Shown here one piece after another: positions 1 through 55,678 of a stretch of 64,000 bases of DNA. Within the stretch, counting starts at the first letter, position 1. Every line of letters starts with the position of its first letter. The notes under the pieces were generated by a model. The model saw only the letters and a program-made list of their open reading frames with translations, did no database searches and was not told the origin of the DNA. The DNA is from Bryum argenteum (lineage: Eukaryota > Streptophyta > Bryopsida > Bryales > Bryaceae), in the NCBI GenBank assembly GCA_037043015.1, contig CM073329.1, forward strand, positions 11,858,648 through 11,922,647. Reading direction: 5' to 3'. A program made the translations under genes and the position numbers.

Positions 1-14
1 CCATGTTTCAAACC

Positions 15-794
15 TCAAAGAACTCCTCCCACTATCAACTTCTTTGGCTCCTTAAGCTCCTTAGGCACCTTCGGCTCTTTTGGTTTCTTGGGGCCTTAGG
101 GACCCTAGGGACCTTGGGCGCCTTAGGTGCCTTCGGTGCCCTCGGTGCCCTCGGTGCCCTCGGTGCCTCGGTGCCTTAGGCGCTTTAGACGCCTTTGGCA
201 CGGTGCATTCTTCTCCCTTGCTAGAAATGCTTGCTCCTAAGGACCGATTGTCCTCGTCTACTTCTTGAGATGGGTTGCATCCATCAAGGTTGATGGTTGC
301 CTCATTCATAACTTTTATCTTCTTTGCTACCTTAGATAATGCCTCCAACTTCCGCTTCGTGGGTTGCACAATTTCCATTGGAGACGGTGCTTCCACTTGC
401 TCAAGTGGCCCTCTATTGATGAAAAATCCGAATGTTTGTTCTTTCTATCATCGACTCCAAAATACTCATCTAACCCCTCGTCATCAATGAATGAATCATC
501 ACTATCGTATTCATCTCCACCCGAGTGACCCAACCTTCCATCTTCACCCTCGTCATCGCTATCATCGCTATCTACACCGCAGTACATACGTTCGATCCTT
601 TCTAGAACCGAGCTAAATCGGTTGACCTTAACTTGTTTTGCGTCTTCCTCTCTACTGGTAGAGGCACAAGAATTTGTTCCATCAGCGCGATACAATCCTT
701 TTGCAATTTCATCATCACGCACCAACTTCTTCCACGACACAATCGTGGTCTCACCCTCCTTCAACTCCACATGGAAATATTGTCGTGAAGACAT
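15..794 (-). pseudogene. Ubinuclein-like HRD gene, unit 1
   Basis: The frame is open from ATG at 792-794 through the HRD to KNKHSD. Three single-base losses follow: CCGAATG (near 431), one base inside the minisatellite (near 170) and one G in TTGGGGCC (near 90). They sum to three, so total length stays a multiple of three although the frame is broken. The copy is only just inside the left edge of the window. Confidence 0.75.
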
Positions 795-1705
795 AGCTAA
801 AAAACAGATCTCTCTCTATATGAGACTACGGTGGATATCAAGCCTTCTTACAATGTGCTAAGGAAAATGTTGTGAGTGCCAAGTGAAAGGCCCAAGGTAA
901 ATATATAGGTGGACACAATAGTCTCGGCGGCTTAGGCCGACCGCTTACCGAGACGATACAAAAACATGTCAACAAGTTCATAATCATATTTCAATTTGGT
1001 AAATTTTCATCTCAAATCCCCCCACAAATATCAAGAAGCGACCATTCTACCCAACGAGTCTCATGTTTGTCACTTTGTTCATAAATCTTTCCGATATATC
1101 TTTTGCATCTTCATGTTATATATAGTTTTGATAAATAACATGCATGTAGTATTCATAAAATACTCAAAGCTACCGTTTATTTCAAATTTTAGTTTACTTG
1201 TGTGTTGTTGAATTCCCAAGTCAGTATGGCTCTTACTTACTCAAATTTGATAATTTTGACTTGAAATTTTTGGGAGCGCCGGTGGCACTATATTAATAGC
1301 CCCCTTGACCTTGCAATGGTGAAAAATGACCAAAGGGAAAATAGTCCAAAACTCGTCCTTTGCACTCAAAACCTACGCCTTATCTTCAACATATCTTTGA
1401 TTTTGTCAAGTCTTCTAGCCATAAAACTAGTCTCCAATTGGAACTCATTACAAGAGATAAAGTCCAAAATCCAACGGTGGGTGAAGGAGATATAGCTCTT
1501 TAATCATCAATCATTTATTCATCTTTTTCATTGCAAAAACATCATTGCAAATCCAAATCCAAATTTATTTGGATCAAAAGTCTTCCAACTAGAAATGTTT
1601 TGGAATTCATCCTAAGATCCTCATGAAAGTTATTTTTCATAAAAACATCTATTTTCTTTCCCATAATTGCCCTATGATGGTAAAACATGTCCCATGTTTC
1701 AAACC

Positions 1706-2496
1706 TCAAAGAACTCCTCCCACTATCAACTTCTTTGGCTCCTTAAGCTCCTTAGGCACCTTCGGCTCTTTTGGTTTCTTGGGGCCTTAGGGACCCTAGG
1801 GACCTTGGGCGCCTTAGGTGCCTTCGGTGCCCTCGGTGCCCTCGGTGCCCTCGGTGCCCTCGGTGCCCTCGGTGCCTTAGGCGCTTTAGACGCCTTTGGC
1901 ACGGTGCATTCTTCTCCCTTGCTAGAAATGCTTGCTCCTAAGGACCGATTGTCCTCGTCTACTTCTTGAGATGGGTTGCATCCATCAAGGTTGATGGTTG
2001 CCTCATTCATAACTTTTATCTTCTTTGCTACCTTAGATAATGCCTCCAACTTCCGCTTCGTGGGTTGCACAATTTCCATTGAGACGGTGCTTCCACTTGC
2101 TCAAGTGGCCCTCTATTGATGAAAATCCGAATGTTTGTTCTTTCTATCATCGACTCCAAAATACTCATCTAACCCCTCGTCATCAATGAATGAATCATCA
2201 CTATCGTATTCATCTCCACCCGAGTGACCCAACCTTCCATCTTCACCCTCGTCATCGCTATCATCGCTATCTACACACCGCAGTACATACGTTCGATCCT
2301 TTCTAGAACCGAGCTAAATCGGTTGACCTTAACTTGTTTTGCGTCTTTCTCTCTCTTGGTAGAGGCACAAGAATTTGTTCCATCGGTAGCGATACAATCC
2401 TTTTGCAATTTCATCATCACGCACCAACTTCTTCCACGACACAATCGTGGTCTCACCCTCCTTCAACTCCACATGGAAATATTGTCGTGAAGACAT
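1706..2496 (-). pseudogene. Ubinuclein-like HRD gene, unit 2
   Basis: This copy has the most lesions: a shift at GGTAGCG (near 2388), two extra bases in CTACACACCGCAG (near 2275), one missing A in GAAAATCCG and CCGAATG (near 2125), CCATTGAGAC (near 2080) and TTGGGGCC (near 1780). It has the longest minisatellite, five CTC-type units. These indels together account exactly for its 791-nt length relative to the inferred intact frame. Confidence 0.73.
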
Positions 2497-3414
2497 AGCT
2501 AAAAAAGCAGATCTCTCTCTATATGAGACTACGGTGGATATCAAGCCTTCTTACAATGTGCTAAGGAAAATGTTGTGAGTGCCAAGTGAAAGGCCCAAGG
2601 TAAATATATAGGTGGTGGACACAATAGTCTCTCGCGGCTTAGGCCGACCGCTTACCGAGACGATACAAAAACATGTCAACAAGTTCATAATCATATTTCA
2701 ATTTGGTAAATTTTCATCTCAAATCCCGCCCACAAATATCAAGAAGCGACCATTCTACCCAACGAGTCTCATGTTTGTCACTTTGTTCATAAATCTTTCC
2801 GATATATCTTTTGCATCTTCATGTTATATAGTTTGGATAAATAACATGCATGTAGTATTCATAAAATACTCAAAGCTACCGTTTATTTCAAATTTTAGTT
2901 TACTTGTGTGTTGTTGAATTCCCAAGTCTGTATGGCTCTTACTTACTCAAATTTGATAATTTTGACTTGAAATTTTTTGGGAGCGCCGGTGGCACTATAT
3001 TAATAGCCCCCTTGACCTTGCAATGGTGAAAAATGACCAAAGGGAAAATAGTCCAAAACACTGTCCTTTGCACTCAAAACCTACGCCTTATCTTCAACAT
3101 ATCTTTGATTTTGTCAAGTCTTCTAGCCATAAAACTAGTCTCCAATTGGAACTCATTACAAGAGATAAAGTCCAAAATCCAACGGTGGGTGAAGGAGATA
3201 TAGCTCTTTAATCATCAATCATTTATTCATCTTTTTCATTGCAAAAACATCATTGCAAATCCAAATCCAAATTTATTTGGATCAAAAGTCTTCCAACTAG
3301 AAATGTTTTGGAATTCATCCTAAGATCCTCATTGAAAGTTATTTTTCATAAAAACATCTATTTTCTTTCCCATAATTGCCCTATGATGGTAAAACATGTC
3401 CCATGTTTCAAACC

Positions 3415-4195
3415 TCAAAGAACTCCTCCCACTATCAACTTCTTTGGCTCCTTAAGCTCCTTAGGCACCTTCGGCTCTTTTGGTTTCTTGGGGGCCTTAG
3501 GGACCCTAGGGACCTTGGGCGCCTTAGGTGCCCGGTGCCCTCGGTGCCCTCGGTGCCCTCGGTGCCCTCGGTGCCTTAGGCGCTTTAGACGCCTTTGGCA
3601 CGGTGCATTCTTCTCCCTTGCTAGAAATGCTTGCTCCTAAGGACCGATTGTCCTCGTCTACTTCTTGAGATGGGTTGCATCCATCAAGGTTGATGGTTGC
3701 CTCATTCATAACTTTTATCTTCTTTGCTACCTTAGATAATGCCTCCAACTTCCGCTTCGTGGGTTGCACAATTTCCATTGAGACGGTGCTTCCACTTGCT
3801 CAAGTGGCCCTCTATTGATGAAAAATCCAGAATGTTTGTTCTTTCTATCATCGACTCCAAAATACTCATCTAACCCCTCGTCATCAATGAATGAATCATC
3901 ACTATCGTATTCATCTCCACCCGAGTGACCCAACCTTCCATCTTCACCCTCGTCATCGCTATCATCGCTATCTACACCGCAGTACATACGTTCGATCCTT
4001 TCTAGAACCGAGCTAAATCGGTTGACCTTAACTTGTTTTTGCGTCTTCCTCTCTACTGGTAGAGGCACAAGAATTTGTTCCATCAGCGCGATACAATCCT
4101 TTTGCAATTTCATCATCACGCACCAACTTCTTCCACGACACAATCGTGGTCTCACCCTCCTTCAACTCCACATGGAAATATTGTCGTGAAGACAT
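3415..4195 (-). pseudogene. Ubinuclein-like HRD gene, unit 3
   Basis: The N-terminus is open up to the AKQ codons, where an extra T (TTTTTGCG, near 4040) shifts the frame. The HRD through KHSGFFINRGPLE is open. The missing G at CCATTGAGAC (near 3778) and an altered first minisatellite unit (near 3530) break the tail. Confidence 0.73.
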
Positions 4196-5108
4196 AGCTA
4201 AAAAACAGATCTCTCTCTATATGAGACTACGGTGGATATCAAGCCTTCTTACAATGTGCTAAGGAAAATGTTGTGAGTGCCAAGTGAAAGGCCCAAGGTA
4301 AATATATAGGTGGACACAATAGTCTCGGCGGCTTAGGCCGACCGCTTACCGAGACGATACAAAAACATGTCAACAAGTTCATAATCATATTTCAATTTGG
4401 TAAATTTTCATCTCAAATCCCGCCCACAAATATCAAGAAGCGACCATTCTACCCAACGAGTCTCATGTTTGTCACTTTGTTCATAAATCTTTCCGATATA
4501 TCTTTTGCATCTTCATGTTATATAGTTTGGATAAATAACATGCATGTAGTATTCATAAAATACTCAAAGCTACCGTTTATTTCAAATTTTAGTTTACTTG
4601 TGTGTTGTTGAATTCCCAAGTCTGTATATGGCTCTTACTTACTCAAATTTGATAATTTTGACTTGAAATTTTTGGGAGCGCCGGTGGCACTATATTAATA
4701 GCCCCCTTGACCTTGCAATGGTGAAAAATGACCAAAGGGAAAATAGTCCAAAACTCGTCCTTTGCACTCAAAACCTACGCCTTATCTTCAACATATCTTT
4801 GATTTTGTCAAGTCTTCTAGCCATAAAACTAGTCTCCAATTGGAACTCATTACAAGAGATAAAGTCCAAAATCCAACGGTGGGTGAAGGAGATATAGCTC
4901 TTTAATCATCAATCATTTATTCATCTTTTTCATTGCAAAAACATCATTGCAAATCCAAATCCAAATTTATTTGGATCAAAAGTCTTCCAACTAGAAATGT
5001 TTTGGAATTCATCCTAAGATCCTCATTGAAAGTTATTTTTCATAAAAACATCTATTTTCTTTCCCATAATTGCCCTATGATGGTAAAACATGTCCCATGT
5101 TTCAAACC

Positions 5109-5898
5109 TCAAAGAACTCCTCCCACTATCAACTTCTTTGGCTCCTTAAGCTCCTTAGGCACCTTCGGCTCTTTTGGTTTCTTGGGGGCCTTAGGGACCC
5201 TAGGGACCTTGGGCGCCTTAGGTGCCTTCGGTGCCCTCGGTGCCTCCCCTCGGTGCCCTCGGTGCCCTCGGTGCCTTAGGCGCTTTAGACGCCTTTGGCA
5301 CGGTGCATTCTTCTCCCTTGCTAGAAATGCTTGCTCCTAAGGACCGATTGTCCTCGTCTACTTCTTGAGATGGGTTGCATCCATCAAGGTTGATGGTTGC
5401 CTCATTCATAACTTTTATCTTCTTTGCTACCTTAGATAATGCCTCCAACTTCCGCTTCGTGGGTTGCACAATTTCCATTGAGACGGTGCTTCCACTTGCT
5501 CAAGTGGCCCTCTATTGATGAAAAATCCGAATGTTTGTTCTTTCTATCATCGACTCCAAAATACTCATCTAACCCCTCGTCATCAATGAATGAATCATCA
5601 CTATCGTATTCATCTCCACCCGAGAGTGATGACCCAACCTTCCATCTTCACCCTCGTCATCGCTATCATCGCTATCTACACCGCAGTACATACGTTCGAT
5701 CCTTTCTAGAACCGAGCTAAATCGGTTGACCTTAACTTGTTTTGCGTCTTCCTCTCTACTGGTAGAGGCACAAGAATTTGTTCCATCAGCGCGATACAAT
5801 CCTTTTGCAATTTCATCATCACGCACCAACTTCTTCCACGACACAATCGTGGTCTCACCCTCCTTCAACTCCACATGGAAATATTGTCGTGAAGACAT
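5109..5898 (-). pseudogene. Ubinuclein-like HRD gene, unit 4
   Basis: The frame is open from the start to GRLGH. A 5-base insertion (CCCGAGAGTGATGACCC, near 5625) disrupts the acidic stretch just before the HRD core. This is the largest lesion in the array outside the minisatellite. Further breaks are CCGAATG (near 5527), CCATTGAGAC (near 5478) and a scrambled minisatellite (near 5240). Confidence 0.73.
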
Positions 5899-6810
5899 AG
5901 CTAAAAAACAGATCTCTCTCTATATGAGACTACGGTGGATATCAAGCCTTCTTACAATGTGCTAAGGAAAATGTTGTGAGTGCCAAGTGAAAGGCCCAAG
6001 GTAAATATATAGGTGGACACAATAGTCTCGGCGGCTTAGGCCGACCGCTTACCGAGACGATACAAAAACATGTCAACAAGTTCATAATCATATTTCAATT
6101 TGGTAAATTTTCATCTCAAATCCCCGCCCACAAATATCAAGAAGCGACCATTCTACCCAACGAGTCTCATGTTTGTCACTTTGTTCATAAATCTTTCCGA
6201 TATATCTTTTGCATCTTCATGTTATATAGTTTGGATAAATAACATGCATGTAGTATTCATAAAATACTCAAAGCTACCGTTTATTTCAAATTTTAGTTTA
6301 CTTGTGTGTTGTTGAATTCCCAAAGTCGTATGGCTCTTACTTACTCAAATTTGATAATTTTGACTTGAAATTTTTGGGAGCGCCGGTGGCACTATATTAA
6401 TAGCCCCCTTGACCTTGCAATGGTGAAAAATGACCAAAGGGAAAATAGTCCAAAACTCGTCCTTTGCACTCAAAACCTACGCCTTATCTTCAACATATCT
6501 TTGATTTTGTCAAGTCTTCTAGCCATAAAACTAGTCTCCAATTGGAACTCATTACAAGAGATAAAGTCCAAAATCCAACGGTGGGTGAAGGAGATATAGC
6601 TCTTTAATCATCAATCATTTATTCATCTTTTTCATTGCAAAAACATCATTGCAAATCCAAATCCAAATTTATTTGGATCAAAAGTCTTCCAACTAGAAAT
6701 GTTTTGGAATTCATCCTAAGATCCTCATTGAAAGTTATTTTTCATAAAAACATCTATTTTCTTTCCCATAATTGCCCTATGATGGTAAAACATGTCCCAT
6801 GTTTCAAACC

Positions 6811-7604
6811 TCAAAGAACTCCTCCCACTATCAACTTCTTTGGCTCCTTAAGCTCCTTAGGCACCTTCGGCTCTTTTGGTTTCTTGGGGGCCTTAGGGAC
6901 CCTAGGGACCTTGGGCGCCTTAGGTGCCTTCGGTGCCTCGGTGCCCTCGGTGCCCTCGGTGCCCTCGGTGCCCTCGGTGCCTTAGGCGCTTTAGACGCCT
7001 TTGGCACGGTGCATTCTTTCTCCTTGCTAGAAATGCTTGCTCCTAAGGACCGATTGTCCTCGTCTACTTCTTGAGATGGGTTGCATCCATCAAGGTTGAT
7101 GGTTGCCTCATTCATAACTTTTATCTTCTTTTTGCTACCTTAGATAATGCCTCCAACTTCCGCTTCGTGGGTTGCACAATTTCCATTTGAGACGGTGCTT
7201 CCACTTGCTCAAGTGGCCCTCTATTGATGAAAAATCCGAATGTTTGTTCTTTCTATCATCGACTCCAAAATACTCATCTAACCCCTCGTCATCAATGAAT
7301 GAATCATCACTATCGTATTCATCTCCACCCGAGTGACCCAACCTTCCATCTTCACCCTCGTCATCGCTATCATCGCTATCTACACCGCAGTACATACGTT
7401 CGATCCTTTCTAGAACCGAGCTAAATCGGTTGACCTTAACTTGTTTTGCGTCTTCCTCTCTCTCTTGGTAGAGGCACAAGAATTTGTTCCATCAGCGCGA
7501 TACAATCCTTTTGCAATTTCATCATCACGCACCAACTTCTTCCACGACACAATCGTGGTCTCACCCTCCTTCAACTCCACATGGAAATATTGTCGTGAAG
7601 ACAT
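6811..7604 (-). pseudogene. Ubinuclein-like HRD gene, unit 5
   Basis: The N-terminus and ADGTNSCAST linker are open. An expanded CTCTCTCT run (near 7460) shifts the frame. The HRD is intact in another frame, then broken by CCGAATG (near 7237) and by two extra T in CTTCTTTTTGC (near 7130). The tail minisatellite also has a one-base loss (near 6935). Confidence 0.72.
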
Positions 7605-8515
7605 AGCTAAAAAAACAGATCTCTCTCTATATGAGACTACGGTGGATATCAAGCCTTCTTACAATGTGCTAAGGAAAATGTTGTGAGTGCCAAGTGAAAG
7701 GCCCAAGGTAAATATATAGGTGGACACAATAGTCTCGGCGGCTTAGGCCGACCGCTTACCGAGACGATACAAAAACATGTCAACAAGTTCATAATCATAT
7801 TTCAATTTGGTAAATTTTCATCTCAAATCCCGCCCACAAATATCAAGAAGCGACCATTCTACCCAACGAGTCTCATGTTTGTCACTTTGTTCATAAATCT
7901 TTCCGATATATCTTTTGCATCTTCATGTTATATAGTTTGGATAAATAACATGCATGTAGTATTCATAAAATACTCAAAGCTACCGTTTATTTCAAATTTT
8001 AGTTTACTTGTGTGTTGTTGAATTCCCAAGTCTCGTATGGCTCTTACTTACTCAAATTTGATAATTTTGACTTGAAATTTTTGGGAGCGCGGTGGCACTA
8101 TATTAATAGCCCCTTGACCTTGCAATGGTGAAAAATGACCAAAGGGAAAATAGTCCAAAACTCGTCCTTTGCACTCAAAACCTACGCCTTATCTTCAACA
8201 TATCTTTGATTTTGTCAAGTCTTCTAGCCATAAAACTAGTCTCCAATTGGAACTCATTACAAGAGATAAAGTCCAAAATCCAACGGTGGGTGAAGGAGAT
8301 ATAGCTCTTTAATCATCAATCATTTATTCATCTTTTTCATTGCAAAAACATCATTGCAAATCCAAATCCAAATTTATTTGGATCAAAAGTCTTCCAACTA
8401 GAAATGTTTTGGAATTCATCCTAAGATCCTCATTGAAAGTTATTTTTCATAAAAACATCTATTTTCTTTCCCATAATTGCCCTATGATGGTAAAACATGT
8501 CCCATGTTTCAAACC

Positions 8516-9296
8516 TCAAAGAACTCCTCCCACTATCAACTTCTTTGGCTCCTTAAGCTCCTTAGGCACCTTCGGCTCTTTTGGTTTCTTGGGGGCCTTA
8601 GGGACCCTAGGGACCTTGGGCGCCTTAGGTGCCTTCGGTGCCCTCGGTGCCCTCGGTGCCCTCGGTGCCCTCGGTGCCTTAGGCGCTTTAGACGCCTTTG
8701 GCACGGTGCATTCTTCTCTCCTTGCTAGAAATGCTTGCTCCTAAGGACCGATTGTCCTCGTCTACTTCTTGAGATGGGTTGCATCCATCAAGGTTGATGG
8801 TTGCCTCATTCATAACTTTTATCTTCTTTGCTACCTTAGATAATGCCTCCAACTTCCGCTTCGTGGGTTGCACAATTTCCATTGAGATGGTGCTTCCACT
8901 TGCTCAAGTGGCCCTCTATTGATGAAAAATCCAGAATGTTTGTTCTTTCTATCACTGACTCCAAAATACTCATCTAACCCCTCGTCATCAATGAATGAAT
9001 CATCACTATCGTATTCATCTCCACCCGAGTGACCCAACCTTCCATCTTCACCCTCGTCATCGCTATCATCGCTATCTACACCGCGCATACATACGTTCGA
9101 TCCTTTCTAGAACCGAGCTAAATCGGTTGACCTTAACTTGTTTTGCGTCTTCTCTCTCTTTGGTAGAGGCACAAGAATTTGTTCCATAGCGATACAATCC
9201 TTTTGCAATTTCATCATCACGCACCAACTTCTTCCACGACACAATCGTGGTCTCACCCTCCTTCAACTCCACATGGAAATATTGTCGTGAAGACAT
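8516..9296 (-). pseudogene. Ubinuclein-like HRD gene, unit 6
   Basis: The N-terminus is open through ERMY, with a shortened linker (CCATAGCGAT). It is broken at CCGCGCATACATA (near 9083), at CCATTGAGATGG (near 8882) and at an extra base in TTCTCTCCTTGC (near 8715). The HRD core has the FGVSD and KHSGFFINRG forms. Confidence 0.73.
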
Positions 9297-10206
9297 AGCT
9301 AAAAAACAGAGATCTCTCTATATGAGACTACGGTGGATATCAAGCCTTCTTACAATGTGCTAAGGAAAATGTTGTGAGTGCCAAGTGAAAGGCCCAAGGT
9401 AAATATATAGGTGGACACAATAGTCTCGGCGGCTTAGGCCGACCGCTTACCGAGACGATACAAAAACATGTCAACAAGTTCATAATCATATTTCAATTTG
9501 GTAAATTTTCATCTCAAATCCCGCCCACAAATATCAAGAAGCGACCATTCTACCCAACGAGTCTCATGTTTGTCACTTTGTTCATAAATCTTTCCGATAT
9601 ATCTTTTGCATCTTCATGTTATATAGTTTGGATAAATAACATGCATGTAGTATTCATAAAATACTCAAAGCTACCGTTTATTTCAAATTTTAGTTTACTT
9701 GTGTGTTGTTGAATTCCCAAGTCGTATGGCTCTTACTTACTCAAATTTGATAATTTTGACTTGAAATTTTTGGGAGCGCCGGTGGCACTATATTAATAGC
9801 CCCCTTGACCTTGCAATGGTGAAAAATGACCAAAGGGAAAATAGTCCAAAACTCGTCCTTTGCACTCAAAACCTACGCCTTATCTTCAACATATCTTTGA
9901 TTTTGTCAAGTCTTCTAGCCATAAAACTAGTCTCCAATTGGAACTCATTACAAGAGATAAAGTCCAAAATCCAACGGTGGGTGAAGGAGATATAGCTCTT
10001 TAATCATCAATCATTTATTCATCTTTTTCATTGCAAAAACATCATTGCAAATCCAAATCCAAATTTATTTGGATCAAAAGTCTTCCAACTAGAAATGTTT
10101 TGGAATTCATCCTAAGATCCTCATTGAAAGTTATTTTTCATAAAAACATCTATTTTCTTTCCCATAATTGCCCTATGATGGTAAAACATGTCCCATGTTT
10201 CAAACC

Positions 10207-10988
10207 TCAAAGAACTCCTCCCACTATCAACTTCTTTGGCTCCTTAAGCTCCTTAGGCACCTTCGGCTCTTTTGGTTTCTTGGGGGCCTTAGGGACCCTA
10301 GGGACCTTGGGCGCCTTAGGTGCCTTCGGTGCCCTCGGTGCCCTCGGTGCCCTCGGTGCCCTCGGTGCCTTAGGCGCTTTAGACGCCTTTGGCACGGTGC
10401 ATTCTTCTCCCTTGCTAGAAATGCTTGCTCCTAAGGACCGATTGTCCTCGTCTACTTCTTGAGATGGGTTGCATCCATCAAGGTTGATGGTTGCCTCATT
10501 CATAACTTTTATCTTCTTTGCTACCTTAGATAATGCCTCCAACTTCCGCTTCGTGGGTTGCACAATTTCCATTGGAGACGGTGCTTCCACTTGCTCAAGT
10601 GGCCCTCTATTGATGAAAAATCCGAATGTTTGTTCTTTCTATCATCGACTCCAAAATACTCATCTAACCCCTCGTCATCAATGAATGAATCATCACTATC
10701 GTATTCATCTCCACCCGAGTGACCCAACCTTCCATCTTCACCCTCGTCATCGCTATCATCGCTATCTACACCGCAGTACATACGTTCGATCCTTTCTAGA
10801 ACCGAGCTAAATCGGTTGACCTTAACTTGTTTTGCGTCTTCCTCTCTACTGGTAGAGGCACAAGAATTTGTTCCATCAGCGCGATACAATCCTTTTGCAA
10901 TTTCATCATCACGCACCAACTTCTTCCACGACACAATCGTGGTCTCACCCTCCTTCAACTCCACATGGAAATATTGTCGTGAAGACAT
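10207..10988 (-). CDS. Ubinuclein-like HRD-domain protein, unit 7 (one net frameshift)
   Basis: The frame is open from ATG at 10986-10988 for over 130 codons: N-terminal HIRA-contact motif, linker ADGTNSCASTSREED, RFSSVLERIERMY, acidic run and HRD core to KNKHSD. A single missing A in CCGAATG (near 10622) shifts the frame. The last 127 codons, from PSPMEIVQPTKRK through the KAP/APR/PKV tail, are open to TGA at 10207-10209. The total of 782 nt is one base short of a 260-aa frame. A TATA box at 11093-11102 lies about 105 bases upstream. Confidence 0.82.
10318..10372. repeat. 9-bp coding minisatellite in the protein tail (unit 7 example)
   Basis: Repeats of GGTGCCCTC (plus strand) encode Ala-Pro-Arg steps on the minus strand. 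The number of CTC-type units ranges from three (units 12, 13) to five (unit 2). Several units contain partial or scrambled repeats here, which is the most variable part of the array. Confidence 0.85.
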
Positions 10989-11092
10989 AGCTAAAAAAAA
11001 AGATCTCTCTCTATATGAGACTACGGTGGATATCAAGCCTTCTTACAATGTGCTAAGGAAAATGTTGTGAGTGCCAAGTGAAAGGCCCAAGG

Positions 11093-11102
11093 TAAATATA
11101 TA
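11093..11102 (-). promoter_or_regulatory. TATA box of unit 7 (repeated in each unit)
   Basis: The minus strand reads TATATATTTA about 105 bases upstream of the ATG, followed 4 bases on by TTGGGCC, a plant site II-type (TGGGCC) motif. The same pair occurs in most units, for example at 899-908 in unit 1. In unit 13 it is changed to a weaker AAAATATA form near 21235. A 5' UTR of roughly 70 bases is inferred. Confidence 0.5.
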
Positions 11103-11115
11103 GGTGGACACAATA

Positions 11116-11150
11116 GTCTCGGCCGGCTTAGGCCGACCGCTTACCGAGAC
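11116..11150. promoter_or_regulatory. Imperfect palindrome upstream of the TATA box (repeated in each unit)
   Basis: The arms GTCTCGG and CCGAGAC enclose a second short inverted repeat (CGGC-TTAG-GCCG). The element sits just upstream of the TATA box in the direction of transcription and recurs in each unit, for example at 921-954 in unit 1. Unit 12 has a mismatch (TTTACGAGAC) and unit 13 lacks part of the left arm. It may be a protein-binding site or simply a conserved part of the repeat. Confidence 0.4.
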
Positions 11151-11901
11151 GATACAAAAACATGTCAACAAGTTCATAATCATATTTCAATTTGGTAAAT
11201 TTTCATCTCAAATCCCGCCCACAAATATCAAGAAGCGACCATTCTACCCAACGAGTCTCATGTTTGTCACTTTGTTCATAAATCTTTCCGATATATCTTT
11301 TGCATCTTCATGTTATATAGTTTGGATAAATAACATGCATGTAGTATTCATAAAATACTCAAAGCTACCGTTTATTTCAAATTTTAGTTTACTTGTGTGT
11401 TGTTGAATTCCCAAGTCTCAGTATGGCTCTTACTTACTCAAATTTGATAATTTTGACTTGAAATTTTTGGGAGCGCGGTGGCACTATATTAATAGCCCCT
11501 TGACCTTGCAATGGTGAAAAATGACCAAAGGGAAAATAGTCCAAAACTCGTCCTTTGCACTCAAAACCTACGCCTTATCTTCAACATATCTTTGATTTTG
11601 TCAAGTCTTCTAGCCATAAAACTAGTCTCCAATTGGAACTCATTACAAGAGATAAAGTCCAAAATCCAACGGTGGGTGAAGGAGATATAGCTCTTTAATC
11701 ATCAATCATTTATTCATCTTTTTCATTGCAAAAACATCATTGCAAATCCAAATCCAAATTTATTTGGATCAAAAGTCTTCCAACTAGAAATGTTTTGGAA
11801 TTCATCCTAAGATCCTCATTGAAAGTTATTTTTCATAAAAACATCTATTTTCTTTCCCATAATTGCCCTATGATGGTAAAACATGTCCCATGTTTCAAAC
11901 C

Positions 11902-12673
11902 TCAAAGAACTCCTCCCACTATCAACTTCTTTGGCTCCTTAAGCTCCTTAGGCACCTTCGGCTCTTTTGGTTTCTTTGGGGCCTTAGGGACCCTAGGGAC
12001 CTTGGGCGCCTTAGGTGCCCTCGGTGCCCTCGGTGCCCTCGGTGCCCTCGGTGCCTTAGGCGCTTTAGACGCCTTTGGCACGGTGCATTCTTCTCCCTTG
12101 CTAGAAATGCTTGCTCCTAAGGACCGATTGTCCTCGTCTACTTCTTGAGATGGGTTGCATCCATCAAGGTTGATGGTTGCCTCATTCATAACTTTTATCT
12201 TCTTTGCTACCTTAGATAATGCCTCCAACTTCCGCTTCGTGGGTTGCACAATTTCCATTGAGACGGTGCTTCCACTTGCTCAAGTGGCCCTCTATTGATG
12301 AAAAATCCGAATGTTTGTTCTTTCTATCATCGACTCCAAAATACTCATCTAACCCCTCGTCATCAATGAATGAATCATCACTATCGTATTCATCTCCACC
12401 CGAGTGACCCAACCTTCCATCTTCACCCTCGTCATCGCTATCATCGCTATCTACACCGCAGTACATACGTTCGATCCTTTCTAGAACCGAGCTAAATCGG
12501 TTGACCTTAACTTGTTTTGCGTCTTCTCTCTCTTGGTAGAGGCACAAGAATTTGTTCCATCGGTTGCGATACAATCCTTTTGCAATTTCATCATCACGCA
12601 CCAACTTCTTCCACGACACAATCGTGGTCTCACCCTCCTTCAACTCCACATGGAAATATTGTCGTGAAGACAT
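11902..12673 (-). pseudogene. Ubinuclein-like HRD gene, unit 8
   Basis: The frame is open from the start through the HRD, with the compensated linker seen in unit 9. It is broken by CCGAATG (near 12307) and by the missing G at CCATTGAGAC (near 12260), after which 118 codons are open to the stop. The minisatellite lacks the usual TTC-type unit, so the tail is shorter. Confidence 0.75.
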
Positions 12674-13583
12674 AGCTAAAAACAGATCTCTCTCTATATG
12701 AGACTACGGTGGATATCAAGCCTTCTTACAATGTGCTAAGGAAAATGTTGTGAGTGCCAAGTGAAAGGCCCAAGGTAAATATATAGGTGGACACAATAGT
12801 CTCGGCGGCTTAGGCCGACCGCTTACCGAGACGATACAAAAACATGTCAACAAGTTCATAATCATATTTCAATTTGGTAAATTTTCATCTCAAATCCCGC
12901 CCACAAATATCAAGAAGCGACCATTCTACCCAACGAGTCTCATGTTTGTCACTTTGTTCATAAATCTTTCCGATATATCTTTTGCATCTTCATGTTATAT
13001 AGTTTGGATAAATAACATGCATGTAGTATTCATAAAATACTCAAAGCTACCGTTTATTTCAAATTTTAGTTTACTTGTGTGTTGTTGAATTCCCAAGTCA
13101 GTATGGCTCTTACTTACTCAAATTTGATAATTTTGACTTGAAATTTTTGGGAGCGCCGGTGGCACTATATTAATAGCCCCCTTGACCTTGCAATGGTGAA
13201 AAATGACCAAAGGGAAAATAGTCCAAAACTCGTCCTTTGCACTCAAAACCTACGCCTTATCTTCAACATATCTTTGATTTTGTCAAGTCTTCTAGCCATA
13301 AAACTAGTCTCCAATTGGAACTCATTACAAGAGATAAAGTCCAAAATCCAACGGTGGGTGAAGGAGATATAGCTCTTTAATCATCAATCATTTATTCATC
13401 TTTTTCATTGCAAAAACATCATTGCAAATCCAAATCCAAATTTATTTGGATCAAAAGTCTTCCAACTAGAAATGTTTTGGAATTCATCCTAAGATCCTCA
13501 TTGAAAGTTATTTTTCATAAAAACATCTATTTTCTTTCCCATAATTGCCCTATGATGGTAAAACATGTCCCATGTTTCAAACC

Positions 13584-14365
13584 TCAAAGAACTCCTCCCA
13601 CTATCAACTTCTTTGGCTCCTTAAGCTCCTTAGGCACCTTCGGCTCTTTTGGTTTCTTGGGGGCCTTAGGGACCCTAGGGACCTTGGGCGCCTTAGGTGC
13701 CTTCGGTGCCCTCGGTGCCCTCGGTGCCCTCGGTGCCCTCGGTGCCTTAGGCGCTTTAGACGCCTTTGGCACGGTGCATTCTTCTCCCTTGCTAGAAATG
13801 CTTGCTCCTAAGGACCGATTGTCCTCGTCTACTTCTTGAGATGGGTTGCATCCATCAAGGTTGATGGTTGCCTCATTCATAACTTTTATCTTCTTTGCTA
13901 CCTTAGATAATGCCTCCAACTTCCGCTTCGTGGGTTGCACAATTTCCATTGGAGACGGTGCTTCCACTTGCTCAAGTGGCCCTCTATTGATGAAAAATCC
14001 GAATGTTTGTTCTTTCTATCATCGACTCCAAAATACTCATCTAACCCCTCGTCATCAATGAATGAATCATCACTATCGTATTCATCTCCACCCGAGTGAC
14101 CCAACCTTCCATCTTCACCCTCGTCATCGCTATCATCGCTATCTACACCGCAGTACATACGTTCGATCCTTTCTAGAACCGAGCTAAATCGGTTGACCTT
14201 AACTTGTTTTGCGTCTTCTCTCTCTTGGTAGAGGCACAAGAATTTGTTCCATCGGTAGCGATACAATCCTTTTGCAATTTCATCATCACGCACCAACTTC
14301 TTCCACGACACAATCGTGGTCTCACCCTCCTTCAACTCCACATGGAAATATTGTCGTGAAGACAT
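13584..14365 (-). CDS. Ubinuclein-like HRD-domain protein, unit 9 (one net frameshift)
   Basis: The frame is open from ATG at 14363-14365 through the N-terminal HIRA-binding motif and the HRD core to KNKHSD. In the linker two opposite shifts (GGTAGCG, then CTTCTCTCTC) cancel, giving a different 10-residue stretch from units 1, 4 and 7. A single missing A in CCGAATG (versus CCAGAATG in units 3, 6, 10-13) at about 14000 breaks the end of the HRD. The remaining 127 codons are open to the normal stop. Restoring that base would give a 783-nt frame, the same as unit 7. Confidence 0.8.
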
Positions 14366-15275
14366 AGCTAAAAACAGATCTCTCTCTATATGAGACTACG
14401 GTGGATATCAAGCCTTCTTACAATGTGCTAAGGAAAATGTTGTGAGTGCCAAGTGAAAGGCCCAAGGTAAATATATAGGTGGACACAATAGTCTCGGCGG
14501 CTTAGGCCGACCGCTTACCGAGACGATACAAAAACATGTCAACAAGTTCATAATCATATTTCAATTTGGTAAATTTTCATCTCAAATCCCGCCCCACAAA
14601 TATCAAGAAGCGACCATTCTACCCAACGAGTCTCATGTTTGTCACTTTGTTCATAAATCTTTCCGATATATCTTTTGCATCTTCATGTTATATAGTTTGG
14701 ATAAATAACATGCATGTAGTATTCATAAAATACTCAAAGCTACCGTTTATTTCAAATTTTAGTTTACTTGTGTGTTGTTGAATTCCCAAGTCAGTATGGC
14801 TCTTACTTACTCAAATTTGATAATTTTGACTTGAAATTTTTGGGAGCGCCGGTGGCACTATATTAATAGCCCCTTGACCTTGCAATGGTGAAAAATGACC
14901 AAAGGGAAAATAGTCCAAAACTCGTCCTTTGCACTCAAAACCTACGCCTTATCTTCAACATATCTTTGATTTTGTCAAGTCTTCTAGCCATAAAACTAGT
15001 CTCCAATTGGAACTCATTACAAGAGATAAAGTCCAAAATCCAACGGTGGGTGAAGGAGATATAGCTCTTTAATCATCAATCATTTATTCATCTTTTTCAT
15101 TGCAAAAACATCATTGCAAATCCAAATCCAAATTTATTTGGATCAAAAGTCTTCCAACTAGAAATGTTTTGGAATTCATCCTAAGATCCTCATTGAAAGT
15201 TATTTTTCATAAAAACATCTATTTTCTTTCCCATAATTGCCCTATGATGGTAAAACATGTCCCATGTTTCAAACC

Positions 15276-16059
15276 TCAAAGAACTCCTCCCACTATCAAC
15301 TTCTTTGGCTCCTTAAGCTCCTTAGGCACCTTCGGCTCTTTTGGTTTCTTGGGGGCCTTAGGGACCCTAGGGACCTTGGGCGCCTTAGGTGCCTTAGGTG
15401 CCTTCGGTGCCCTCGGTGCCCTCGGTGCCCTCGGTGCCTTAGGCGCTTTAGACGCCTTTGGCACGGTGCATTCTTCTCCCTTGCTAGAAATGCTTGCTCC
15501 TAAGGACCGATTGTCCTCGTCTACTTCTTGAGATGGGTTGCATCCATCAAGGTTGATGGTTGCCTCATTCATAACTTTTATCTTCTTTGCTACCTTAGAT
15601 AATGCCTCCAACTTCCGCTTCGTGGTTGCACAATTTCCATTGGAGACGGTGCTTCCACTTGCTCAAGTGGCCCTCTATTGATGAAAAATCCAGAATGTTT
15701 GTTCTTTCTATCATCGACTCCAAAATACTCATCTAACCCCTCGTCATCAATGAATGAATCATCACTATCGTATTCATCTCCACCCGAGTGACCCAACCTT
15801 CCATCTTCACCCTCGTCATCGCTATCATCGCTATCTACACCGCAGTACATACGTTCGATCCTTTCTAGAACCGAGCTAAATCGGTTGACCTTAACTTGTT
15901 TTTGCGTCTTCCTCTCTCTTGGTAGAGGCACAAGAATTTGTTCCATCGGTAGCGATACAATCCTTTTGCAATTTCATCATCACGCACCAACTTCTTCCAC
16001 GACACAATCGTGGTCTCACCCTCCTTCAACTCCACATGGAAATATTGTCGTGAAGACAT
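15276..16059 (-). pseudogene. Ubinuclein-like HRD gene, unit 10
   Basis: The N-terminus is shifted at the GGTAGCG site (near 15950) and by an extra T in the TTTTTGCG run (near 15900). The HRD and KHSGFFINRGPLE are then open through PSPMEIVQ. A missing G in CGTGGTTGC (near 15623) breaks the frame. The last 111 codons, with the full basic tail and stop, are open. Confidence 0.75.
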
Positions 16060-16972
16060 AGCTAAAAAAAAGATCTCTCTCTATATGAGACTACGGTGGA
16101 TATCAAGCCTTCTTACAATGTGCTAAGGAAAATGTTGTGAGTGCCAAGTGAAAGGCCCAAGGTAAATATATAGGTGGACACAATAGTCTCGGCGGCTTAG
16201 GCCGACCGCTTACCGAGACGATACAAAAACATGTCAACAAGTTCATAATCATATTTCAATTTGGTAAATTTTCATCTCAAATCCCGCCCACAAATATCAA
16301 GAAGCGACCATTCTACCCAACGAGTCTCATGTTTGTCACTTTGTTCATAAATCTTTCCGATATATCTTTTGCATCTTCATGTTATATAGTTTGGATAAAT
16401 AACATGCATGTAGTATTCATAAAATACTCAAAGCTACCGTTTATTTCAAATTTTAGTTTACTTGTGTGTTGTTGAATTCCCAAGTCTGTATGGCTCTTAC
16501 TTACTCAAATTTGATAATTTTGACTTGAAATTTTTTGGGAGCGCCGGTGGCACTATATTAATAGCCCCCTTGACCTTGCAATGGTGAAAAATGACCAAAG
16601 GGAAAATAGTCCAAAACTCTGTCCTTTGCACTCAAAACCTACGCCTTATCTTCAACATATCTTTGATTTTGTCAAGTCTTCTAGCCATAAAACTAGTCTC
16701 CAATTGGAACTCATTACAAGAGATAAAGTCCAAAATCCAACGGTGGGTGAAGGAGATATAGCTCTTTAATCATCAATCATTTATTCATCTTTTTCATTGC
16801 AAAAACATCATTGCAAATCCAAATCCAAATTTATTTGGATCAAAAGTCTTCCAACTAGAAATGTTTTGGAATTCATCCTAAGATCCTCATTGAAAGTTAT
16901 TTTTCATAAAAACATCTATTTTCTTTCCCATAATTGCCCTATGATGGTAAAACATGTCCCATGTTTCAAACC

Positions 16973-17752
16973 TCAAAGAACTCCTCCCACTATCAACTTC
17001 TTTGGCTCCTTAAGCTCCTTAGGCACCTTCGGCTCTTTTGGTTTCTTGGGGGCCTTAGGGACCCTAGGGACCTTGGGCGCCTTAGGTGCCTTTCGGTGCC
17101 CTCGGTGCCCCTGCCCGGTGCCCTCGGTGCCTTAGGCGCTTTAGACGCCTTTGGCACGGTGCATTCTTCTCCCTTGCTAGAAATGCTTGCTCCTAAGGAC
17201 CGATTGTCCTCGTCTACTTCTTGAGATGGGTTGCATCCATCAAGGTTGATGGTTGCCTCATTCATAACTTTTATCTTCTTTGCTACCTTAGATAATGCCT
17301 CCAACTTCCGCTTCGTGGGTTGCACAATTTCCATTGAGACGGTGCTTCCACTTGCTCAAGTGGCCCTCTATTGATGAAAAATCCAGAATGTTTGTTCTTT
17401 CTATCACTGACTCCAAAATACTCATCTAACCCCTCGTCATCAATGAATGAATCATCACTATCGTATTCATCTCCACCCGAGTGACCCAACCTTCCATCTT
17501 CACCCTCGTCATCGCTATCATCGCTATCTACACCGCAAAGTACATACGTTCGATCCTTTCTAGAACCGAGCTAAATCGGTTGACCTTAACTTGTTTTGCG
17601 TCTTCCTCTCTACTGGTAGAGGCACAAGAATTTGTTCCATCAGCGCGATACAATCCTTTTGCAATTTCATCATCACGCACCAACTTCTTCCACGACACAA
17701 TCGTGGTCTCACCCTCCTTCAACTCCACATGGAAATATTGTCGTGAAGACAT
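16973..17752 (-). pseudogene. Ubinuclein-like HRD gene, unit 11
   Basis: The N-terminus (MSSRQ to ERMY) is open, including the in-frame ADGTNSCASTSREED version of the linker. Extra bases in CCGCAAAGTAC (near 17535) break the frame before the HRD. The HRD core with KHSGFFINRG is open. A missing G at CCATTGAGAC (near 17335) and a scrambled minisatellite (near 17090-17120) break the tail. Confidence 0.75.
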
Positions 17753-18662
17753 AGCTAAAAACAGATCTCTCTCTATATGAGACTACGGTGGATATCAAGC
17801 CTTCTTACAATGTGCTAAGGAAAATGTTGTGAGTGCCAAGTGAAAGGCCCAAGGTAAATATATAGGTGGACACAATAGTCTCGGCGGCTTAGGCCGACCG
17901 CTTACCGAGACGATACAAAAACATGTCAACAAGTTCATAATCATATTTCAATTTGGTAAATTTTCATCTCAAATCCCGCCCACAAATATCAAGAAGCGAC
18001 CATTCTACCCAACGAGTCTCATGTTTGTCACTTTGTTCATAAATCTTTCCGATATATCTTTTGCATCTTCATGTTATATAGTTTGGATAAATAACATGCA
18101 TGTAGTATTCATAAAATACTCAAAGCTACCGTTATTTCAAATTTTAGTTTACTTGTGTGTTGTTGAATTCCCAAGTCTGTATGGCTCTTACTTACTCAAA
18201 TTTGATAATTTTGACTTGAAATTTTTTGGGAGCGCCGGTGGCACTATATTAATAGCCCCCTTGACCTTGCAATGGTGAAAAATGACCAAAGGGAAAATAG
18301 TCCAAAACTCGTCCTTTGCACTCAAAACCTACGCCTTATCTTCAACATATCTTTGATTTTGTCAAGTCTTCTAGCCATAAAACTAGTCTCCAATTGGAAC
18401 TCATTACAAGAGATAAAGTCCAAAATCCAACGGTGGGTGAAGGAGATATAGCTCTTTAATCATCAATCATTTATTCATCTTTTTCATTGCAAAAACATCA
18501 TTGCAAATCCAAATCCAAATTTATTTGGATCAAAAGTCTTCCAACTAGAAATGTTTTGGAATTCATCCTAAGATCCTCATTGAAAGTTATTTTTCATAAA
18601 AACATCTATTTTCTTTCCCATAATTGCCCTATGATGGTAAAACATGTCCCATGTTTCAAACC

Positions 18663-19437
18663 TCAAAGAACTCCTCCCACTATCAACTTCTTTGGCTCCT
18701 TAAGCTCCTTAGGCACCTTCGGCTCTTTTGGTTTCTTGGGGCCTTAGGGACCCTAGGGACCTTGGGCGCCTTAGGTGCCTTCGGTGCCCTCGGTGCCCTC
18801 GGTGCCCTCGGTGCCTTAGGCGCTTTAGACGCCTTTGGCACGGTGCATTCTTCTCCCTTGCTAGAAATGCTTGCTCCTAAGGACCGATTGTCCTCGTCTA
18901 CTTCTTGAGATGGGTTGCATCCATCAAGGTTGATGGTTGCCTCATTCATAACTTTTATCTTCTTTGCTACCTTAGATAATGCCTCCAACTTCCGCTTCGT
19001 GGGTTGCACAATTTCCATTGGAGACGGTGCTTCCACTTGCTCAAGTGGCCCTCTATTGATGAAAAATCCAGAATGTTTGTTCTTTCTATCACTGACTCCA
19101 AAATACTCATCTAACCCCTCGTCATCAATGAATGAATCATCACTATCGTATTCATCTCCACCCGAGTGACCCAACCTTCCATCTTCACCCTCGTCATCGC
19201 TATCATCGCTATCTACACCGCAGCATACATACGTTCGATCCTTTCTAGAACCGAGCTAAATCGGTTGACCTTAACTTGTTTGCGTCTTCCTCTCTCTTGG
19301 TAGAGGCACAAGAATTTGTTCCATCGGTAGCGATACAATCCTTTTGCAATTTCATCATCACGCACCAACTTCTTCCACGACACAATCGTGGTCTCACCCT
19401 CCTTCAACTCCACATGGAAATATTGTCGTGAAGACAT
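18663..19437 (-). pseudogene. Ubinuclein-like HRD gene, unit 12
   Basis: The N-terminal part reads through RFSSVLERIERMY. The frame then breaks at an altered CCGCAGCATACATA site (near 19220) and is regained for a 163-codon stretch holding the HRD core and basic tail. A missing G in the TTGGGGCC run (near 18738) throws the last 30 or so codons out of frame. It has the FGVSD and KHSGFF variants, like units 6, 11 and 13. Confidence 0.75.
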
Positions 19438-20155
19438 AGCTAAAAAACAGATCTCTCTCTATATGAGACTACGGTGGATATCAAGCCTTCTTACAATGTG
19501 CTAAGGAAAATGTTGTGAGTGCCAAGTGAAAGGCCCAAGGTAAATATATAGGTGGACACAATAGTCTCGGCGGCTTAGGCCGACCGCTTTACGAGACGAT
19601 ACAAAAACATGTCAACAAGTTCATAATCATATTTCAATTTGGTAAATTTTCATCTCAAATCCCGCCCACAAATATCAAGAAGCGACCATTCTACCCAACG
19701 AGTCTCATGTTTGTCACTTTGTTCATAAATCTTTCCGATATATCTTTTGCATCTTCATGTTATATAGTTTGGATAAATAACATGCATGTAGTATTCATAA
19801 AATACTCAAAGCTACCGTTTATTTCAAATTTTAGTTTACTTGTGTGTTGTTGAATTCCCAAGTCTCGTATGGCTCTTACTTACTCAAATTTGATAATTTT
19901 GACTTGAAATTTTTGGGAGCGCCGGTGGCACTATATTAATAGCCCCTTGACCTTGCAATGGTGAAAAATGACCAAAGGGAAAATAGTCCAAAACTCGTCC
20001 TTTGCACTCAAAACCTACGCCTTATCTTCAACATATCTTTGATTTTGTCAAGTCTTCTAGCCATAAAACTAGTCTCCAATTGGAACTCATTACAAGAGAT
20101 AAAGTCCAAAATCCAACGGTGGGTGAAGGAGATATAGCTCTTTAATCATCAATCA

Positions 20156-20161
20156 TTTATT
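20156..20161 (-). terminator. Poly(A) signal AATAAA of unit 13 (repeated in each unit)
   Basis: AATAAA on the minus strand lies about 190 bases downstream of the TGA at 20349, in a conserved GATGAATAAATGA context found in every unit. Spacing fits a 3' UTR of about 200 bases. Confidence 0.45.
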
Positions 20162-20198
20162 CATCTTTTTCATTGCAAAAACATCATTGCAAATCCAA

Positions 20199-20216
20199 AT
20201 CCAAATTTATTTGGAT
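20199..20216. repeat. Perfect 8-bp-arm palindrome in the 3' flank of each unit
   Basis: ATCCAAAT and ATTTGGAT are separated by two bases. The element is present in every unit within the presumed 3' UTR, so the transcript could form a short hairpin here. Confidence 0.5.
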
Positions 20217-20348
20217 CAAAAGTCTTCCAACTAGAAATGTTTTGGAATTCATCCTAAGATCCTCATTGAAAGTTATTTTTCATAAAAACATCTATTTTCT
20301 TTCCCATAATTGCCCTATGATGGTAAAACATGTCCCATGTTTCAAACC

Positions 20349-21123
20349 TCAAAGAACTCCTCCCACTATCAACTTCTTTGGCTCCTTAAGCTCCTTAGGC
20401 ACCTTCGGCTCTTTTGGTTTCTTGGGGGCCTTAGGGACCCTAGGGACCTTGGGCGCCTTAGGTGCCTTCGGTGCCCTCGGTGCCCTCGGTGCCCTCGGTG
20501 CCTTAGGCGCTTTAGACGCCTTTGGCACGGTGCATTCTTCTCCCTTGCTAGAAATGCTTGCTCCTAAGGACCGATTGTCCTCGTCTACTTCTTGAGATGG
20601 GTTGCATCCATCAAGGTTGATGGTTGCCTCATTCATAACTTTTATCTTCTTTGCTACCTTAGATAATGCCTCCAACTTCCGCTTCGTGGGTTGCACAATT
20701 TCCATTGGAGACGGTGCTTCCACTTGCTCAAGTGGCCCTCTATTGATGAAAAATCCAGAATGTTTGTTCTTTCTATCACTGACTCCAAAATACTCATCTA
20801 ACCCCTCGTCATCAATGAATGAATCATCACTATCGTATTCATCTCCACCCGAGTGACCCAACCTTCCATCTTCACCCTCGTCATCGCTATCATCGCTATC
20901 TACACCGCAGTACATACGTTCGATCCTTTCTAGAACCGAGCTAAATCGGTTGACCTTAACTTGTTTTGCGTCTTTCTCTCTCTTGGTAGAGGCACAAGAA
21001 TTTGTTCCATCGGTAGCGATACAATCCTTTTGCAATTTCATCATCACGCACCAACTTCTTCCACGACACAATCGTGGTCTCACCCTCCTTCAACTCCACA
21101 TGGAAATATTGTCGTGAAGACAT
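20349..21123 (-). CDS. Ubinuclein-like HRD-domain protein, unit 13 (one net frameshift)
   Basis: This is one of the three least damaged copies. The start ATG (21121-21123) opens a plant ubinuclein-type N-terminus (RQYFHVELKEGETTIVSWKK), the region that in UBN1 contacts the WD40 domain of HIRA. One net +1 shift near 21010-21020 moves the frame, which then stays open for over 200 codons to the TGA at 20349-20351. It carries RFSSVLERIERMY, an acidic DSDDSDDE stretch, the HRD core (DSFIDDEGLDEYF, then KHSGFFINRGPLE), a basic KRK/KKIK stretch, and a tail of KAP/APR/PKV repeats. In ubinucleins the HRD binds histone H3.3-H4. Full plant ubinucleins are much longer, so the C-terminal middle domain is absent. 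The ancestral type is clear from the motifs. Function, and whether the frameshift is real, are open. Confidence 0.8.
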
Positions 21124-21637
21124 AGCTAAAAAAAAGAGATCTCTCTATATGAGACTACGGTGGATATCAAGCCTTCTTACAATGTGCTAAGGAAAATGTT
21201 GTGAGTGCCAAGTGAAAGGCCCAAGGTAAAAATATAGGTGGGACATAATAGTCGGCGGCTTAGGCCGACCGCTTACCGAGACGATACAAAAACATGTCAA
21301 CAAGTTCATAATCATATTTCAATTTGGTAAATTTTCATCTCAAATCCCGCCCACAAATATCAAGAAGCGACCATTCTACCCAACGAGTCTCATGTTTGTC
21401 ACTTTGTTCATAAATCTTTCCGATATATCTTTTGCATCTTCATGTTATATAGTTTGGATAAATAACATGCATGTAGTATTCATAAAATACTCAAAGCTAC
21501 CGTTTATTTCAAATTTTAGTTTACTTGTGTGTTGTTGAATTCCCAAGTCTGTATGGCTCTTACTTACTCAAATTTGATAATTTTGACTTGAAATTTTTTG
21601 GGAGCGCCGGTGGCACTATATTAATAGCCCCCTTGAC

Positions 21638-35460: not shown

Positions 35461-36173
35461 CTTCAGAAAATTTAACAGTAGGTAAACTATAGGTCTAATA
35501 GTGATAGTTCACAACAAGTTTATATTTTCAAATCACCAAAAATAGAAAATTCCACATATTGGAATGAAGAGCAGTATTTTGAAGTGGTTTTGGGTCTCTA
35601 CTGCCCCTTGGCCTTTAATAGGATTGGAAAATTGTATCTTATGTTGTTTAGGAAAGTGGCATCAAAGTTACCAAGGATCTTTAACAAATGTTATATTTAC
35701 GATTTAATTCTTTTGAGAATCCCTCTATAGTATCATTAGCTTCAAATACATTAAACCCCAATTCCGTTAAAATCGCATTATTCCGGTAAAATGGCACACC
35801 TCAACTTTAGCTCAAAAACCATGAGATATAACAGAATTTTAAGGTGATATTAGGGAAAATGAGTGACAATGCATATAGAGAAGTGATATTACAAAAAAAA
35901 ATTGTGATATTACAGAATATACCATTTTATATGAGCACAAATGTAAGATCTAGTGTGACAAATTGGCACATGACATAGTGCCATTTTAACGAAATTGGGG
36001 TTATTACTCTTTGACTAATGTATGGGACGTGATGAGACTGCATTGATAGCTTGTGCTAATATCCGACCAAATTGCTGTGTCTTTGCAGAATCTCTGGATG
36101 AATATGCACAGAAGGATTGCCGATAATCCCACATCTTGCATTATAGCCCTGGATGATAACAATGACGGTGCAC

Positions 36174-43741: not shown

Positions 43742-43943
43742 TTAACACACGTTCAAAAGAACTCTTCCAAGAAAGTTCCAACCATCGTAACTATAATTAG
43801 ACAATTTAGCTACATTGTGAGTTCACTAACTACGTAAGTAACTTGATCAAACGATGGATTGCACATCACAAGTGCTCGTAAATGCATGCACCATTGTTTT
43901 TGATTCCTTAGTCAAAAATCATGTTAATATTATGCTGCATTTT

Positions 43944-55579: not shown

Positions 55580-55591
55580 TGAGTGAAACTT

Positions 55592-55609: not shown

Positions 55610-55678
55610 TCTAAAGTCGTGAAGCCACGAATTCCCTGGTGGGACGCCGAGTTCCTTTTGTAGATCCGGTGGGAGCAA

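Follow-up and report, generated by a model that had tools for sequence, protein, structure and literature searches.

Ubinucleins are known from Arabidopsis as subunits of the HIRA complex, encoded by two genes, UBN1 and UBN2 (AT1G21610 and AT1G77310; PMC4163656); ubinuclein is low-copy in the plants described, and the same source places its duplication on record in ferns and mosses. We analyzed a 64,000-nt window of the Bryum argenteum genome (assembly GCA_037043015.1, contig CM073329.1, hereafter C9; window C9:11858648-11922647) and searched the whole assembly (258.8 Mb, 25 contigs). The first 21,637 nt of the window are a tandem array of short gene units encoding a truncated ubinuclein. At the level of titles and abstract openings, the literature yielded no ubinuclein tandem array or retrogene family, and we know of no tandemly amplified ubinuclein gene. 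The best overall explanation, which we consider probable, is that a selected family of mini-ubinuclein retrogenes had one of its C9 loci amplified, and that the product would serve as a minimal HIRA-complex subunit.

Self-comparison showed that window positions 1-21637 repeat one another at 97.6-98.6% identity. Thirteen unit starts, all on the minus strand, are spaced 1681-1707 bp apart (consensus unit, 1693 bp), so that the window holds 12 units in full and 1304 bp of a thirteenth, or 12.8 units. The array extends to the left beyond the window; its homology begins at C9:11845071 and ends at 11880284, and it comprises 21 gene units. The first-pass annotation of the window had proposed a dense head-to-tail amplification of at least 12.8 units, and both the arrangement and the number were borne out in the assembly.

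The same annotation had described each unit as carrying a HIRA-contact motif and the HRD histone-binding core, without the rest of ubinuclein. A profile search of unit 1 recovered the HUN domain (HRD; PF08729) at 44.6 bits (E 1.4e-11; cut-off 26.9), as had been expected, and the protein is indeed a truncated form: HUN was the only Pfam family above cut-off in the six frames of this unit (Collagen reached a sub-cut-off 18.1 and 13.8 bits), and UBN_AB (PF14075) had no match in them. HUN scores were 43-49.5 bits in all eight open family members scanned, and 24.6 bits, below cut-off, in a broken-frame piece of unit 13. The N-terminal NHRD-like stretch, a NRFSSVLERIERMY stretch, the HRD core and the tail are present in 13 of 13 window units, and GFFINRGPLEQVEAPS in 12. 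The NHRD-like stretch, so labeled by analogy, lies ~60 residues ahead of the HRD core by hand count and is conserved with an intron-containing candidate gene on C3, described below. All 13 units encode EYDSDDSFIDD, with counterparts of seven UBN1 residues important for H3.3 binding; alanine substitution of UBN1 Y132, D133, D136, F138, I139, D140 or N141 weakened H3.3/H4 binding (PMC4510971). The array units have D at the last of these positions, where that paper notes that N is sometimes D.

A composite built from units 7 and 1 encodes 257 residues, with an acidic middle (isoelectric point 4.2) and a basic tail (11.3); the 9-bp minisatellite that encodes part of the tail differs in copy number among units. 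The TATA box and AATAAA signal noted at first pass are also kept, with TATATATTT in 12 of 13 window units and AATAAA beyond the stop in each of the 12 units that have their 3’ part inside the window. A palindrome that closely precedes the TATA-like box has a somewhat better fold than shuffled sequences (z -1.96, 8/200). A search of solved structures returned low-complexity or marginal matches only, and neither Rfam (at the gathering threshold) nor a tRNA scan gave a hit in the window.

The candidate gene on C3 provides the comparison from which the origin of the short form can be read. The protein of L031, an open dispersed member of the family, matched C3 in three pieces that follow gene order (query residues 11-38, 109-140 and 137-166) with E values of 0.017, 0.14 and 0.0032, each individually weak. 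An exon model derived from DNA, not transcripts, comprises five exons in one frame on the minus strand, from an ATG at 22579810 to a Lys-rich segment, separated by four GT-AG introns (130, 120, 261 and 275 bp), the third of which interrupts the HRD. Fused exons 2-4 score 58.1 bits against HUN. Downstream on the same strand, UBN_AB reaches 19.4 bits, below its cut-off of 25; the genome-wide UBN_AB search had no match anywhere, not even at the controls, which may mean simply that the model suits this lineage badly. The short genes continue through all four C3 intron places and have no intron, in agreement with the earlier description of an intronless short form. Because these four introns are absent, the short genes are best seen as retrogenes or descendants of retrogenes; they look like the products of retroposition, and we infer that the C3 gene was their direct parent.

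The short form occurs beyond the array too. The HUN profile found at least 24 places in the genome, of which 13 belong to the array; the other 11 are on C9 (five), C2 (three) and C6, C7 and C8 (one each), all counts being lower bounds. A DNA search added partial relatives on C4, C6 and C9. Open members are L019, L020, L027, L028, L029, L030, L031 and the unit at the left edge of the array; L025 is a 5’ fragment. L027 (C9:11691291) and L028 (C9:11721178) are near-identical open genes of 312 codons, in opposite orientation ~30 kb apart, that differ by a short stretch resembling a compensated frameshift and by one other residue.

Among the seven open paralogues and the array gene, the ratio of non-synonymous to synonymous substitution (dN/dS) between subfamilies was 0.20-0.40 by NG86 over 141-151 codons, and 0.20-0.61 for the same pairs by YN00; the array gene was represented by the composite, and the pairs L019-L031, L019-array and L027-L029 have no value. 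With the edge unit in place of the composite, bootstrap medians against L029, L027 and L031 were 0.24, 0.28 and 0.21 (upper limits 0.41, 0.47 and 0.35). The subfamilies are old (dS 0.46-1.41), and the ratios between the open ones show constraint, from which it follows that the short proteins have been under selection. The calculations left out the broken loci L021, L022, L023, L024, L026 and L032, an omission that biases toward constraint. The dispersed family shows signs of purifying selection.

The array itself poses a different problem. The idea that every unit is a gene stood for the motifs, found in 13 of 13 window units, and fell for the reading frame, which is open from start to stop in 0 of 13 as assembled. 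Across all 21 units one is open, the left edge unit, which adjoins unique sequence and encodes 303 aa. Relative to the composite, window units carry 1-5 frame-shifting gaps each, 42 in total (units 1 and 7 being the sources of the composite). The composite is itself an open frame, which means that every break in the coding region is matched by an in-frame allele in some other unit.

Differences between units cluster at 30 variable sites. CAG/CTG is the most depleted triplet class in the array (54 seen, 543 expected; the next lowest class is at 0.72 of expectation), and all 54 remaining triplets lie at variable sites. At nine of the 30 sites at least one unit has a CAG/CTG allele, compared with a mean of 1.5 and a maximum of 6 in 2000 random placements, and CAG/CTG was unchanged in 248 of 624 between-unit comparisons versus 88-98% for the other classes counted. 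At seven of the nine sites the single-copy paralogues carry the CAG/CTG allele (L019 6/7, L020 7/7; 13 of 14 cells); at the minisatellite site, where CAG occurs in unit 3 alone, L019 and L020 have no CAG allele, and the last site falls outside the stretch compared with them. Within unit positions 500-1150, the 20 other units retain the CAG/CTG triplets of the edge unit in 51 of 100 cells, and other triplets in 12592 of 12900. A precedent exists in bacteria, where ~70% of the consensus errors of then-current nanopore basecallers fell in methylated CCAGG/CCTGG (PMC6591954).

Taken together, the open edge unit, the alleles of L019 and L020, the recurrence of edge-unit triplets and the nanopore precedent indicate that the breaks in the array frames are probably consensus errors. 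Most simply, basecalling of native reads would have erred at methylated CAG/CTG, and polishing would have left these errors standing in the repeat, next to ordinary repeat and homopolymer errors; we infer both nanopore sequencing and CHG methylation of the array, and a literature search on nanopore errors at CHG gave no result. In the tissue that was sequenced, the array copies may carry methylation and be mostly silent. Error does not account for the whole shortage, an idea that we dropped, since the open paralogues are also CAG/CTG-poor (L019, 6 versus 30.9 expected; L020, 13 versus 36.1) and part of the depletion is therefore real. Deamination was rejected as the main cause of unit differences, as it fits 51 of 376 changed CAG/CTG comparisons (CAG to CAA, 40; CTG to TTG, 11). 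Other repeats in the window behave variously: CAG/CTG is unchanged in 16 of 59 comparisons between the long direct repeats of a Gypsy-type element (other classes, 72-92%), as in the array, and in 32 of 34 for a repeat pair at 36.1-36.7 and 43.8-44.4 kb, unlike the array. Five older pairs show CAG/CTG stability of 0.33-0.53 with some C-to-T changes, so these older pairs do not separate error from mutation.

Several observations weigh against the overall explanation. Six fetched dispersed loci, those omitted above, look broken, as do the frames of 20 of the 21 array units as assembled. For the youngest branches a dN/dS below 1 is not clearly established (edge unit versus L020, bootstrap 0.17-2.13), and the edge unit differs from L019 by 2 synonymous and 6 non-synonymous codons. 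CAG/CTG in the array stands at 0.10 of expectation, compatible with a silenced repeat. Twenty-one of the 30 variable sites have no CAG/CTG allele, so this error class alone cannot explain all breaks, and four edge-unit CAG/CTG triplets beyond position 1150, where the edge unit diverges, are shared by 0 of 20 units.

The broken units and the recent branches without clear constraint also favor an alternative in which the array is a dead satellite, a silenced repeat containing a ubinuclein retrogene, with pseudogenes in the array and function confined to dispersed members. It would fit, too, with a unit that contains pieces of two dispersed repeats, and with a CAG/CTG depletion that is strongest in the array (0.06-0.16 of expectation in 2-kb bins, versus 0.19-0.82 elsewhere in window positions 1-64000). 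We nevertheless regard it as unlikely, given the in-frame alleles behind the open composite, the 303 open codons of the edge unit, and the retained TATA-like and AATAAA signals.

The anatomy of the unit bears on how the array may have arisen. Unit positions 2-200 belong to a dispersed repeat. Of 17 fetched loci, 16 have at least 2.3 kb of it in common, and in the remaining one, L046, the shared part starts at position 1714 of its stretch. The second repeat piece, unit 1285-1693, follows the gene in L020, L021 and L022 and precedes it in L023 and L024; in L019 and L025 a part of this piece sits directly before the unit-like stretch. The natural gene, as seen in L020 and the edge unit, runs past unit position 1284, the point at which internal units change over to repeat sequence, ending in GGVL. 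Direct repeats of this kind could drive unequal crossing-over, and the near-identity of the units suggests that amplification was recent or that the units have been homogenized. Adjacent units are no more alike than in shuffled orders (194 shared states versus a mean of 187.2, p 0.13). This last result, with differences confined to 30 sites of which many are error-like, would also suit a copy number inflated by an assembler that expanded or looped a few true units. We consider such an artifact improbable, because the array has two edges that differ from each other (the right starts within a repeat piece, the left runs into the natural gene end) and because minisatellite lengths vary among units.

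Coordinates of the array, its units and the parts of unit 1 within the 64,000-nt window
Feature	Window positions	Strand	Remark
In-window part of array	1..21637	-	12.8 of 21 units
Unit 1, right array edge	19948..21637	-	self-comparison, unit starts
Unit 2	18261..19947	-	unit starts
Unit 3	16570..18260	-	unit starts
Unit 4	14875..16569	-	unit starts
Unit 5	13182..14874	-	unit starts
Unit 6	11501..13181	-	unit starts
Unit 7	9805..11500	-	unit starts
Unit 8	8115..9804	-	unit starts
Unit 9	6409..8114	-	unit starts
Unit 10	4707..6408	-	unit starts
Unit 11	3012..4706	-	unit starts
Unit 12	1305..3011	-	unit starts
Unit 13, truncated by window edge	1..1304	-	unit starts
Unit 1 dispersed-repeat piece (~200 bp, unit 2-200)	21433..21631	-	90.5-92% identity to 17 fetched genomic copies
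Unit 1 coding region, ATG to TGA	20349..21123	-	assembled frame shifts at one site
Unit 1 NHRD-like (HIRA-contact-like) stretch, VELKEGETTIVSWKKL...	21016..21099	-	named by analogy; in 13/13 units
Unit 1 HUN/HRD domain (PF08729)	20727..20852	-	profile match
Unit 1 Lys/Pro/Ala-rich basic tail	20352..20522	-	partly from 9-bp minisatellite
Unit 1 3’ segment (unit ~1285-1693), dispersed repeat	19948..20348	-	carries AATAAA; adjoins other family members

A further alternative, that this is an ampliconic gene with a reproductive or sex-linked role, its high copy number increasing the dosage of a HIRA competitor in gametes, draws on the location of the array and five of the 11 outside HUN loci on C9 and on the fly ubinuclein Yemanuclein, which cooperates with HIRA in the male pronucleus (PMC3567178); it is very improbable, as Arabidopsis hira, ubn1, ubn2 and cabin1 mutants and their combinations are fertile (PMC4163656) and C9, at 17.0 Mb, exceeds C11 (7.0 Mb) and so is not the odd small contig; contig size gives a sex-chromosome assignment no support. 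A rolling-circle or viral replicon was rejected: the hairpin at the unit start folds no better than shuffles (z 0.06), the six frames of unit 1 contain no replication-protein domain, and relatives were confirmed in 0 of 27 matched stretches of viral_contigs and 0 of 82 of genome_contigs. Helitrons begin with TC after a host A and end in CTRR; the array starts with TCAAGG after a G and the unit ends in GCAAGG (by eye, array copy), which departs from this rule.

The retrogene explanation implies the following history. A ubinuclein messenger would have been copied back into the genome as a short intronless gene that kept the HIRA-contact-like N-terminus and the H3-H4-binding HRD and ended in a lysine/proline-rich tail. 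This mini-ubinuclein would then have spread to many loci, diverged into subfamilies and been retained by selection, and one C9 member would have been multiplied into 21 head-to-tail units, with unequal crossing-over between copies of a flanking dispersed repeat as the probable route. The protein is most likely a minimal HIRA-type histone-chaperone subunit: its HRD would contact H3-H4 and its N-terminus HIRA, with the rest of ubinuclein missing. Possession of both contact modules and little else suggests that it would supplement, or compete with, full-length ubinuclein. Plant and animal H3.3 differ at position 90, which bears on the H3 specificity of such a protein. A bolder proposal, which we hold to be doubtful, is that retroposition has created, in a plant lineage, a separate class of minimal HIRA subunits (NHRD, HRD and a linker-histone-like Lys/Pro tail), that the 21-copy array raises their dose, and that competition with full-length ubinuclein tunes or blocks H3 deposition in certain cell types, gametes perhaps among them.

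A retroposed, selected and amplified short form with just two binding modules amounts to a natural experiment on which part of ubinuclein is sufficient, and makes the question of the minimal module approachable with a small protein. The array also illustrates that apparent pseudogenes in assembled repeats can be consensus errors, here partly linked to CAG/CTG, which is relevant to the annotation of tandem genes in plants.

Other features of the window lie to the right of the array. An open frame on the minus strand at 25213-26220 encodes a retroviral-type aspartic protease domain (41.7 bits). The inverted repeat pair at 36100-36700 and 43800-44400 is 96% alike and, unlike its depleted surroundings, is normal in CAG/CTG (39 seen, 40.7 expected); the six frames of 36100-37000 had no Pfam match at E 0.01. 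The Gypsy-type element occupies 53501-63718, with long direct repeats of at least 53501-55579 and 61659-63718 (93% identical), ribonuclease H and integrase zinc-binding domains, and a reverse transcriptase match below cut-off; its G+C content is 52-57%, versus 29-41% from the end of the array to 52 kb. Depletion of CpG is milder in the array than at 22-52 kb. Elsewhere in the genome, TTTAGGG runs, which we take to be the plant-type telomere repeat, occur at 997 forward and 224 reverse places; the places listed, all inside C1, include many short interstitial runs, and telomeres are not thereby shown.

Tandem amplification of genes is familiar from rDNA, histone clusters and ampliconic sex-chromosome genes, and the array resembles these in its near-identical head-to-tail units with their own promoter-like and poly-A signals. 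Within the same genome, the C3 candidate has the same order of parts (NHRD-like start, NRFSSVIERIERLY, HRD and Lys-rich segment); it differs in its four introns and in a sequence likeness that continues downstream, whereas the short form is intronless there and stops early. The yeast Hpc2 and S. pombe Hip4 proteins are likewise HRD-containing subunits of HIRA/Hir complexes and resemble UBN1 essentially in the HRD alone; retroposed or arrayed copies are unmentioned in the excerpted text (PMC2956695). Arabidopsis UBN1 and UBN2, judged from their published description, have an NHRD plus HRD architecture that the short form resembles in its NHRD-like stretch and HRD, but they are two genes, whereas B. 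argenteum has a short intronless form at many dispersed loci and in an array of 21 units.

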